From assembly GCA_029266495.1 (NCBI GenBank), contig JAQSWS010000018.1, forward strand, positions 1 to 64,000: a stretch of 64,000 bases of DNA. The letters run 5' to 3'. The translations under genes were made by a program, and so were the position numbers. The notes under the pieces are model-generated. The model saw only the letters and a program-made list of their open reading frames with translations. It did no database searches and was not told the DNA's origin. Below, one piece after another: positions 9,011 to 11,519 of this stretch (the first letter of the stretch is position 1; every line of letters starts with the position of its first letter). The stretch is from Rariglobus sp. (GTDB lineage Bacteria; Verrucomicrobiota; Verrucomicrobiia; Opitutales; Opitutaceae).

Positions 9011-9088
9011 GCCGAGGGGGGATTCGGGCGAAAATAATGAGACGGGATTGTGTCGCCGCGGGGCGTGGCGGGGGTTTCATGGTGGCCG

Positions 9089-10477
9089 ATGAGCGACATG
9101 GCGATTTCCGGGGGCGAGGAGGCGCGCGTTGAAAGCGTGAGTGCCTTTACGCGGCGGGTGAAGACGGTGCTGGAGCGGGAAATCCGGCCCGGCTGGGTGC
9201 GCGGGGAGGTATCCAACCTTAGACTACAAGCGAGCGGGCATGTTTATTTTTCGCTCAAGGACGCGGGGGCGCAGCTGGCGGCGGTGTTGTTTCGCGGTGA
9301 CGCCGCGCGGCAGACGGTGAAGCTGCGCGACGGGGCGCAGGTGCTCGTTTACGGGGAGGTCTCGGTTTACGAGGCGCGCGGCAACTACCAGCTGATCGTG
9401 CGGGCGGTGATCGAGGATGGGGAGGGACGGCTGCAGCGGGAGTTCGAGGCGCTCAAGCGGCGGCTGGCGGACGAGGGGCTGTTTGCGGCGGAAAACAAGG
9501 TGGCGGTCCCCGCGATGCCGCGAACGGTGGGTTTTATCACCTCGCCGACGGGCGCGGCGGTGCAGGATTTTATGCGAATTCTGATCCGGCGCGGCTGGCG
9601 CGGGCGTGTGGTGGTGCTGCCCGCCAAGGTCCAGGGCGACGGGGCGGCGGCGGAGATGGCGGCGTGGGTGGAGTATGCCGGCGGGCTTCGCCGCGGAATG
9701 ACCAATGACCAATGTCCAACGACCCATGACGGATCGGAGGGGGCGGCGCTTTCGGCTGCGGGGACGGAACCGTTTTTTGATTTGCTGGTGATCGGGCGTG
9801 GGGGCGGGTCGCTGGAGGACTTGTGGGCGTTTAACGAGGAGCCGCTGGTGCGTGCGGTGGCGGCGTGCCGGGTTCCGATCATCTCGGCGGTGGGGCATGA
9901 GATTGATTTTACGCTATGCGATTTTGCGGCCGATGTGCGCGCGGAGACGCCGAGCGCGGCGGCGGAGTTGATTTCGAGCGGGTTTGTCGAGGCGTTCGAA
10001 CGGGCGGGCCGGCTGGCGGCCGATCTGGTTTATCGGGTCGGTGTGGGCATGGAGGCGGCCGACGAGCGGCTGGCTCATGCGCGGTCTCGACTGCGGCTGC
10101 TGGCGCCGTCGGCGCAGATCGAGCGCGGCCACCTGAGGCTCGACGACCTGACGAACCGGTTATCCGCGGCACTGGGAGCGACGGTGCAGGGGAGGCGTCA
10201 GCGGCTCAGGGACGCGGCGGCGATGCTGCGCGAGCGTTCGCCGCAGCGGCGGGTGGAGGCGGAGTCGCAGCGGTTGCTGGCGCTGTGGAAGCGGTTGCAG
10301 GCGGCGAGTCCGGCCTCGGTGTTGAATCGCGGATTCGTGATCATGCGCGATGAGGACGGCCGGCCGGTGCAAAAAAAAGCCGCCGTCCAAAAAGGGCAGC
10401 GGCTGGAGGCGGAATTTGCCGATGGAACGGTGCCGGTGACCGCCGCCGAGGGCGGCGGAATGACCAATGACCAATGA
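9089..10477 (+). CDS. xseA: Exodeoxyribonuclease VII large subunit (XseA)
   Basis: About 462 residues. With XseB it degrades single-stranded DNA. The N-terminal OB domain runs VSAFTRRVKTVLEREIRPGWV, GEVSNLRLQASGHVYFSLKD; the catalytic domain has VGFITSPTGAAVQDF, LLVIGRGGGSLEDLWAFNEE and IISAVGHEIDFTLCDFAAD; a charged coiled-coil region and ASPASVLNRGFVIM follow. Residues 204 to about 215 (MTNDQCPTTHD) are an insertion coded by a degenerate AATGACC heptamer array in the loop before the RGGGS motif. The last residues (MTNDQ) and the stop codon are coded by a second, perfect array. The start is 9089 or 9098 (MAISG); both precede the first conserved helix. xseB is not in the window. Function should be intact if the loop tolerates the insert. 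Confidence 0.95.
   Translation: MSDMAISGGEEARVESVSAFTRRVKTVLEREIRPGWVRGEVSNLRLQASGHVYFSLKDAGAQLAAVLFRGDAARQTVKLRDGAQVLVYGEVSVYEARGNYQLIVRAVIEDGEGRLQREFEALKRRLADEGLFAAENKVAVPAMPRTVGFITSPTGAAVQDFMRILIRRGWRGRVVVLPAKVQGDGAAAEMAAWVEYAGGLRRGMTNDQCPTTHDGSEGAALSAAGTEPFFDLLVIGRGGGSLEDLWAFNEEPLVRAVAACRVPIISAVGHEIDFTLCDFAADVRAETPSAAAELISSGFVEAFERAGRLAADLVYRVGVGMEAADERLAHARSRLRLLAPSAQIERGHLRLDDLTNRLSAALGATVQGRRQRLRDAAAMLRERSPQRRVEAESQRLLALWKRLQAASPASVLNRGFVIMRDEDGRPVQKKAAVQKGQRLEAEFADGTVPVTAAEGGGMTNDQ
9697..9731. repeat. Degenerate AATGACC heptamer array inside xseA
   Basis: Five heptamers in a row: two perfect AATGACC, then AATGTCC, AACGACC and CATGACG. The reading frame passes through as GGA-ATG-ACC-AAT-GAC-CAA-TGT. 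A perfect third unit would give TGA, a stop, at this point, so the A-to-T change at 9715 keeps xseA open. Confidence 0.9.
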
Positions 10478-10500
10478 CCAATGACCAATGACCAATGACC
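10459..10500. repeat. Six perfect AATGACC heptamers at the xseA 3' end
   Basis: Six exact tandem copies of AATGACC. The xseA frame enters the array in the same phase as at the internal array and stops at the TGA at 10475-10477, so the array provides the last five residues and the stop codon. The 22 bases beginning GCGGAATGACC are identical at both arrays. Read on the other strand it is TTGGTCATTGGTCATT. Confidence 0.97.
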
Positions 10501-10526: not shown

Positions 10527-11519
10527 CTAATTTCCTGCGGCTGCGGGGGCGGCGATGCGGGCGCGTTCGGCTTGGACGGCGGCGAGGGCGTGGGGGCGGA
10601 GTTCGGCGGTGTCGGCGGCGGTGAGAGCCTTGGGCACGTAAGCGACGGGCAGGGCGTCCGCGTTGAAGAGTTGCAGATACCAGACTGCGCCCGCCAGGTA
10701 TTTGCCGGCGGCGTTGCAATGGATGGCATCGAGGAAAAATTTAGGTTTCGAGCCCTCCTTGGCGGGGGTGCTCCAGACCCAGCCAACGTTGAGGCTCGTG
10801 CGTTGATCGGGGAACTGGCCGGCGGGCGGATTTTCGAAATCGAACTTGGGGTCGGGGGTGTAGGTCCAGCGCGGGGTCTGGCGGGCGAGTTGGAAGGCGT
10901 CGCCGACGGGGAGGACGCGGAAGCTTTTGCCATCGGCGAAGGTTTTATAGGCGGAGGTCAGGTCCGCATACATTTTCGCGGGAGTGAATCCGTCATCTTT
11001 TTTAAAGAAATCGTGGTCTTCGCGATAGGCCCAGGTTTGGTGGACGACGATTTCGGCGGTGGGGGCGTATTTGCGGATGGCGGCGATGAGTTCGTCGGCG
11101 AATGGCTGGAAGGTCTCGGGTTTGAAGCTGAGCTGGCTCCATTGCTGGAGGGTGACGATGTCCCACGGCTGGGCGGAGAGGAGTTCGGGAAGGGTGAAAT
11201 CGCTTTTCTCGCCGGTCTTCGGGTGGGAGGTTTTATAGGCTTTGCCCTTGGGATCGCCGGCTTCGGCTTGGTTGAGGTGACGGGCGTGGCGTTCGAGGGA
11301 GCAACCGCCGATGCTGGCGCGGCCGACGAGGAGTTGTTTGCCACCGGCTTCGGCCATGTAGGGGAGGTAGCCGAGCGCGTCGTTGGAAAAGCTGTTGCCG
11401 ATGGTGAGGAGCTTGAGGGAATCGCGTTCGGCGGCGGTGACCGAGGTCCAGATGGCCAGGGTTGAAAGCACCGTGATCGCAAGGATCAGGCGGGAGCAGG
11501 AAAGCGGTCTCGTAATCAT
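10527..11519 (-). CDS. Secreted SGNH-like (DUF4886-type) hydrolase
   Basis: About 330 residues with an N-terminal signal peptide (LILAITVLSTLAIWTSVTAA). The mature protein opens with LLTIGNSFSNDALGYLPYMA, the GNSFS block I of SGNH-fold proteins of the DUF4886 type. WDIVTLQQWSQ acts as a block III-like strand, and LDAIHCNAAGKYLAGAVWYLQ near the C-terminus holds the Asp/His block V. Such proteins are probable esterases acting on acetylated or acylated glycans in the periplasm. A paralogue with the same GNSFx start lies at 31925-32770. No close partner gene is seen; xseA converges on it. The substrate is unknown. Confidence 0.75.
   Translation of the reverse strand: MITRPLSCSRLILAITVLSTLAIWTSVTAAERDSLKLLTIGNSFSNDALGYLPYMAEAGGKQLLVGRASIGGCSLERHARHLNQAEAGDPKGKAYKTSHPKTGEKSDFTLPELLSAQPWDIVTLQQWSQLSFKPETFQPFADELIAAIRKYAPTAEIVVHQTWAYREDHDFFKKDDGFTPAKMYADLTSAYKTFADGKSFRVLPVGDAFQLARQTPRWTYTPDPKFDFENPPAGQFPDQRTSLNVGWVWSTPAKEGSKPKFFLDAIHCNAAGKYLAGAVWYLQLFNADALPVAYVPKALTAADTAELRPHALAAVQAERARIAAPAAAGN

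Follow-up and report, generated by a model that had tools for sequence, protein, structure and literature searches.

AATGACC heptamer arrays within and at the end of xseA in Rariglobus, and the association of this repeat family with one-sided hairpins

Two AATGACC arrays in xseA

How does a short tandem repeat come to lie both inside a conserved gene and at its very end, in the same reading frame? The question is raised by xseA, which codes for the large subunit of exodeoxyribonuclease VII, in the draft genome of a Rariglobus sp. (GCA_029266495.1, here designated G000; 4.89 Mb in 172 contigs). The gene occupies positions 9089–10477 on the plus strand of the window, by which we mean the entire 64,000 nt stretch of contig JAQSWS010000018.1 that was analyzed. 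Its assignment is based on Pfam domain PF02601 (E = 2.9e-85), on OB-fold domains, and on the homologue 8txr_A, the only one among solved structures at E up to 0.001 (E = 1.4e-73). The alignment to 8txr_A is interrupted at XseA query residues 197–222, i.e., around the insert described below. The best named matches of XseA point to the Opitutaceae. According to a gene caller written for this analysis, the start is probably the ATG at 9089 rather than the GTG at 9050.

The inner array (9697–9731, plus strand) consists of five imperfect units (AATGACC, AATGACC, AATGTCC, AACGACC, and CATGACG) and is read as MTNDQCPTTHD. The terminal array (10459–10500, plus strand) consists of six exact AATGACC units. 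Both are detected by Tandem Repeats Finder and both share one codon phase, with ATG at 9698 and 10460 in the xseA frame. The inner array stays open in this frame owing to a TGT codon in its third unit (9713–9715, plus strand), whereas in the terminal array that unit carries the TGA stop codon of xseA (10475–10477, plus strand). The original prediction, made from the letters of the window, was that two in-phase arrays lie in and at the end of xseA and that the outer one encodes MTNDQ and the stop, and sequence and frame bear this out. The gene had also been labeled as essential-type; given that E. coli can do without xseA, this label is doubtful.

Compared to relatives, XseA carries a 27-codon insert around the inner array (9692–9772, plus strand; residues 202–228; edges approximate, from XseA alignments), which exceeds the 35-nt array in length. 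A weak inverted repeat adjoins this array (9681–9694, plus strand; 4-bp stem, score 4 with a threshold of 6), for which a long-loop version scores 6. The terminal array is abutted by the hairpin CCGCCGCC-GAG-GGCGGCGG (10440–10458, plus strand; score 8), which encodes part of the C-terminal end of XseA. A convergent neighbor gene (10527–11519, minus strand) ends 26 nt past the terminal array. Codons of xseA tend to end in G (G3 0.58, C3 0.23), nearby minus-strand genes are C-ending (mostly about 0.6), and the plus strand is G-rich in the first 26 kb of the window.

In an AlphaFold model of XseA (14 sequences, mean pLDDT 77.4, pTM 0.53), residues 209–224 within the insert have a pLDDT below 50 and lie between a predicted helix (186–199) and a predicted strand (232–237). 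The new tail (residues 454–462) also has a pLDDT below 50, as do residues 1–9 and 407–416. The low values for insert and tail fit a tolerated loop and tail, and they are also expected because the other 13 sequences in the model are devoid of these parts.

The insert is absent from XseA of 8 of the 10 congeners that cover the site (the pieces from G200 and G201 stop short of it) and from all 14 more distant XseA sequences that were aligned (24 loci were given, of which 10 without the searched string were left out). In two congeners, G117 and G097, the site also holds an insert, of different content; that of G097 comprises two arrays. From this distribution among relatives, the insert looks like a gain, rather than a loss, at a variable loop. 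At the 3′ end of xseA, G097 has a hairpin, four units instead of the six in G000, and the same MTNDQ-stop ending; the hairpin scores 8 in G000 and 11 in G097, where a longer version is found at the same site. The ordinary TAA stop of the G178 gene is followed shortly beyond by decayed units, and the xseA ends of the other eight congeners have no array near the stop in the sequence inspected. The claims that the repeat entered xseA and that it moved the end of the gene are thus supported by alignment with relatives, the terminal array having replaced the xseA end in G000 and G097.

Phase variation was considered for the xseA end and rejected, because the stop stays in the third unit with six as well as with four units. 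For the inner array, a frameshift is possible in principle, and no off allele was found among the 11 XseA aligned (that of G000 included).

That the arrays are due to chance or to an assembly artefact is extremely improbable. The genome is a draft in 172 contigs, which would leave room for misassembly, but the 14-mer AATGACCAATGACC matches the window eight times with up to two mismatches, compared to a mean of 0.21 and a maximum of 2 in 100 dinucleotide shuffles. Moreover, the same xseA sites carry arrays in separate congener genomes, which refutes an artefact.

A further claim was that a single A-to-T change had rescued the reading frame at the inner array, i.e., that a pure AATGACC array entered xseA and that a point mutation from TGA to TGT was then selected. 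TGT is found at the critical codon in all four in-frame inner arrays of xseA, which are from three species (one in G000, one in G117, and two in G097), and this argues for constraint on the frame. For the same reason, the change is not private to G000. In addition, AATGTCC is an ordinary unit of the repeat family, common where no rescue is needed: in the set of 121 arrays from three congeners (see below; the two xseA inner arrays of the set are excluded from unit counts), it is present in 36 of 119 other arrays, and the third unit begins with AATGT in 21 of 118. Among four-unit arrays, 23 of 79 are already open in the frame used by xseA and 40 of 79 are closed in all three frames of the AATGACC sense. 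As open arrays and AATGTCC are this common, a copy that came with the variant may simply have been kept. A rescue mutation private to G000 is thus not supported, and we consider the rescue reading quite unlikely; a rescue may have taken place in an ancestor from which all three species descend. A copy that already bore AATGTCC and landed in its single open frame would suffice to explain xseA.

A dispersed heptamer family and its gene context

The exact 14-mer occurs 74 times in G000 (43 copies on the plus and 31 on the minus strand), compared to none for a reversed-pattern control, and visual inspection assigns the copies to 30 arrays. With a less stringent 19-mer that tolerates up to two mismatches, there are 185 matches genome-wide, compared to 3 in the control. 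AATGACC thus forms many scattered sets with at least two direct copies of one heptamer, i.e., a dispersed heptanucleotide repeat. In its canonical form, which is about 32 nt long, one strand reads CATT(GGNCATT)4 and its complement (AATGACC)n. Four units are most frequent among the 121 arrays from the three congeners G000, G097, and G117 (81 arrays), followed by three (19), five (11), six or more (9), and two (1).

The family is very unevenly distributed. The exact 14-mer is present in 34 of 200 genomes from the family Opitutaceae, with 133 copies in the congener G097 and 118 in G004, which belongs to another genus; among eight other congeners scanned, G041, G134, and G164 have none. In a phylum-wide draw, three exact units were found in 13 of 387 genomes. 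Individual copies are patchy as well. At L111:5280 and 6390, both within a DinG-like gene, and at L111:1207, upstream of a gene, G000 shares its array only with G097, or with G097 and G117, among the relatives aligned. For the array at L122:3039, relatives are not cleanly empty, and some have degenerate heptamers.

Gene context was determined with our second gene caller, corrected for codon skew and with genes scoring below 15 ignored. About a third of the arrays (41 of 121) are inside genes, 39 of them in the GGTCATT sense and 2 in the AATGACC sense, the latter both in xseA (the xseA array of G117 is outside the 121-array set). The largest class, though not a majority, comprises 49 of the 121 arrays, which precede a start in the space between two co-directional genes and have GGTCATT in the sense of the gene. 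Their distance to the start ranges from 5 to over 1000 nt, with many at 5–35 nt, and at least one of them (L122:6749) really lies at the end of a gene missed by the caller. Of the remainder, 7 overlap the 5′ part of a gene, 7 cover a gene end in the AATGACC sense, 7 follow a stop in the AATGACC sense, and 10 have other arrangements. In 112 of 121 arrays, the GGTCATT strand has no stop codon in any frame. The orientation with stops is thus found at gene ends and the open orientation within genes, the inner arrays of xseA being the exception. As to the question, raised originally, of whether arrays cluster at gene ends, they do cluster at the boundaries of genes, but most often before a start codon and in the reverse orientation.

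A link of the arrays to the replication strand was considered and set aside: although 111 of 121 arrays have AATGACC on the G-rich strand, gene direction is confounded with skew. The rpo operon is C-rich in sense; outside of it, the rpoC-sense strand is G-rich in two of three stretches. The rpoC gene (PF04997) was not found in G000, despite a stated completeness of 99.75%.

Copies inside genes in the GGTCATT sense are read as GHWSLVI. Pfam supports eight of nine sampled genes that bear an array on the GGTCATT strand (DinG-like, GcpE, DnaE, UvrA, VWA, periplasmic binding, Fe-S/DmsC, and HemF); for one gene, there is no family. At the 5′ ends of genes in L114, L126, L132, L248, L210, L212, and L215, arrays code, as judged by eye, for WSLVIGH-like hydrophobic cores, and several of them look like the core of putative signal peptides in secreted-looking proteins.

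The case of xseA is not the only one in which an array supplies a stop codon. A gene with an RF-1 domain (release factor-like; L122:6292–6768, plus strand), which the second gene caller had missed, ends with KSGRRGMTNDQ-stop in G000, with KAGRRGMTNDQ-stop in G097, and with KAGRKISGRDA-stop in G041, a genome devoid of the exact 14-mer. Judged from these endings, it is a second gene with a moved end. Called genes that end with MTNDQ or MTNFQ in L208, L211, and L243 are short or weakly scored. Simple repeats thus rewrite the ends of conserved genes, as in XseA and the RF-1-domain protein. As they also enter DnaE, UvrA, DinG-like, and HemF proteins, automatic annotation and conservation scores should be read with caution in such regions.

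The frequent position upstream of starts, often at 5–35 nt, together with the seven arrays just after stops in the opposite sense, would suit functional RNA or DNA elements, e.g., translation or termination elements. Such a role would also agree with the compensating stem changes by which the hairpin of L118 in G000 and that of L215 in G097 differ. However, about a third of the arrays are inside genes, the family is absent from most Opitutaceae genomes and from three of the eight other congeners scanned, and a common function was not seen among 11 array-bearing genes tested, xseA included. Moreover, the orientation before starts is also expected from avoidance of the ATG codons of AATGACC. We thus regard a role as functional elements as rather improbable.

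Hairpins on one side of the arrays

We called a hairpin when an inverted repeat with a score of at least 6 ended 0–2 nt before the array on the AATGACC strand. In an initial set, this applied to 18 of 35 arrays, compared to 1.6% of 6000 random positions, and to none of the 35 on the other side. In the three congeners, a G+C-rich hairpin is found at the 5′ side of AATGACC in 49 of 121 arrays and at the 3′ side in none. Controls gave 1.4% for 3800 positions within genes, 1.6% for 996 positions after stops, and 1.2% for 1640 positions before starts. In 41 of the 49 cases, no nucleotide separates the hairpin from the first unit. Among 151 AATGA sites outside of arrays, three score at least 6, and all three are themselves copies with one or two units. 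This base-exact, one-sided link provides a testable handle on where heptamer arrays grow.

Hairpin rates differ between genomes: 28 of 53 arrays in G000, 19 of 41 in G097 (41 arrays in 21 stretches, out of 62 array starts), and 2 of 27 in G117. Hairpins were found at 7 of 15 arrays in G004 and G135, which represent two other genera, and at 1 of 17 in G150 and G203. A first look at loci from other genomes of the family gave 6 of 37. None was found at 10 loci from the phylum-wide draw (one of which is from the same family) or at 46 arrays on viral contigs, 2 of which have one on the other side. Given these uneven rates, the hairpin does not accompany the heptamer universally, and even in the three congeners 72 of 121 arrays are devoid of a hairpin by the score used.

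The stems are variable, with 35 distinct starts (first six bases) among the 49 hairpins, the commonest being CCGCGC with 12. In 19 picked pairs of orthologous arrays, the hairpin is present in both partners in 5, in one partner only in 9, and in neither in 5. Hairpin and array thus turn over independently. That a hairpin can precede its array is suggested by L111:6390, where G041 is devoid of the array but already has an inverted repeat (CCACGCGGCGACCGGCGTGG) that differs by a single base.

Long arrays more often have a hairpin: 7 of 9 arrays with at least six units compared to 42 of 112 shorter ones (one-sided Fisher test, p = 0.022). The mean number of units is modestly different, 4.7 with a hairpin versus 4.0 (one-sided p = 0.042), and the fraction of exact units does not differ significantly (p = 0.12). 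These p-values are optimistic, because orthologous arrays are counted more than once.

A reading of the hairpins as terminators was rejected, as no T-run was seen by eye after the inspected hairpins on either strand.

Neither a link between hairpins and heptamers nor the AATGACC family is named in the titles and abstract openings among the literature matches listed, and searches with the exact repeat strings and with the GHWSLVI peptide gave no paper. The one-sided link of a hairpin with a heptamer array thus appears to be a new element in the literature examined.

Intergenic arrays also occur as inverted pairs, in which AATGACC units are followed some 25–120 nt on by GGTCATT units, or in a similar arrangement (L206, L207, L208, L214, L227, L237, L243; L321–L325, L327, and L328). 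Such pairs could form one long hairpin. On the viral contig IMGVR_UViG_3300017987_002545 (L354 and L364), many AATGACC arrays face GGTCATT copies.

Candidate mechanisms and known systems

Copies of the array are present or absent at orthologous sites of congeners and differ in unit number. We favor the reading, with a probability of about 0.6, that arrays disperse by a route left unspecified, grow by slippage at the feet of hairpins, and are filtered by reading frame. Copies would arrive at new sites by insertion or by conversion from another copy. A polymerase that copies the AATGACC strand would meet the hairpin at its foot, where it may slip and thereby lengthen the array. Selection would then retain copies that do little harm, i.e., those in intergenic regions, at gene ends, in likely signal peptides, in loops, and in an open frame. 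Of the two xseA copies, the inner one would have been tolerated in a variable loop and in its single open frame of the AATGACC sense, and in the 3′ copy the third unit would provide the stop whatever the length of the array. In vitro, polymerases have been described to slip on a template that combines a hairpin with short direct repeats (PMC4134008, in the sections available). The hairpin data fit slippage at the hairpin foot, short of proof. No insertion machinery was identified for the arrays, and no target duplication was defined.

A more far-reaching version would treat hairpin-anchored arrays as a distinct repeat class. The arrays would be born, or would grow, at the 3′ foot of hairpins that replication exposes in one of the strands. 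The hairpins would be perfected by template switching, and the arrays, as the fixed part of the element, would reflect how the replication machinery tends to copy rather than what a transposase recognizes, repeatedly writing GMTNDQ ends and GHWSLVI signal-peptide cores into proteins. We offer this as a tentative possibility.

A palindrome with a fixed motif on one side is also reminiscent of REP and REPIN elements, and the hairpin and its GGTCATT foot could have been moved jointly by a tyrosine transposase (RAYT). Inverted pairs with inward motifs are found in G097 and G117 and, mostly without hairpins, in G150 and G203. G000 has one Y1 transposase gene, the flanks of which contain GTCATTTTTT and AAATGACAAAAAA. 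There is also a precedent from O. terrae (Verrucomicrobia), which we take to be Opitutus terrae. As far as the available sections of that survey go, REPs with GTAG or CGTC tags consist of a palindrome with a fixed motif at one end and occur singly or as inverted pairs; intragenic GTAG REPs are most numerous in O. terrae, where both uvrA genes are among their hosts, and the termini of GTAG REPs often supply stop codons (Di Nocera 2013; PMC3733652).

Against such an origin, the stems of the AATGACC hairpins are not conserved (see above), and the tag is neither GTAG nor CGTC, the motif beside the hairpin being CATT/GGTCATT (the far side was viewed by eye). Hairpin and array are separable in orthologous pairs. 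Of 37 genomes tested, 35 have the Y1_Tnp domain, including all 13 that carry the 14-mer and 22 of the 24 that do not, and no array flanks the RAYT-like Y1 gene within L166. RAYT mobilization was set aside on these grounds, and a REP/REPIN-like origin is, in our view, quite unlikely. Unlike REPs, the fixed part of the AATGACC elements is a tandem heptamer array, the stems do not form a conserved family, and arrays without a hairpin are common. The inverted pairs, which can fold into a larger hairpin, resemble REPINs as described in the available part of the report (Bertels and Rainey 2011; PMC3116915), but neither a conserved palindrome nor a matched transposase was found here.

TAACTGA direct repeats have been reported from marine Beggiatoaceae, Cyanobacteria, and Bacteroidetes, and translation or termination elements were proposed for them in Beggiatoaceae (MacGregor 2015; PMC4679880, here and below in the sections available). 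Like AATGACC, they are direct repeats of 7 nt with few units per set, scattered, and patchy across lineages. Most TAACTGA sets precede a start, and 13 of the sets overlap a stop codon upstream. One orientation of TAACTGA is closed by stops in all frames and extends over gene ends, and the other is open and found inside ORFs, an asymmetry that AATGACC shares. The AATGACC family differs by its heptamer, by mostly having about four units, by the one-sided G+C-rich hairpin beside many arrays, and by having about a third of its arrays inside genes, including repair genes. In the available text of that paper, the string “palindrom” is absent and “stem-loop” occurs 36 times, in passages on RNA folds of the repeats themselves. 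Given the TAACTGA and GTAG REP precedents, it is already known that repeats can enter genes and provide their stop codons. The dispersed heptamer in xseA is thus a well-documented case of an ordinary kind, with a new and testable structural association.

Heptanucleotides were reported as the commonest class of long repeats in most genomes that have such repeats, and slippage was proposed for them (Mrazek 2007, as cited in the available text of PMC4679880). AATGACC differs from such long simple sequence repeats in that one sequence is tied to hairpins, with the limit that AATGACC is the only heptamer surveyed in this genome.

Other repeats were seen next to arrays or at their sites. In L334 of G004, an array that ends at 1144 is directly adjoined by a second one with at least eight copies of AGAAGCC, so that the period of 7 is retained while the unit switches from AATGACC to AGAAGCC. 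At site 8147 of L111, relatives (G150, G202, and G117) have dispersed-looking inverted repeats of the GAGAACGAGTAGGAG type at the same intergenic site. Similarly, CACGGAT-type repeats, also dispersed-looking, are found in G097 at the intergenic site of an array (site 3204 of L122, in L222).
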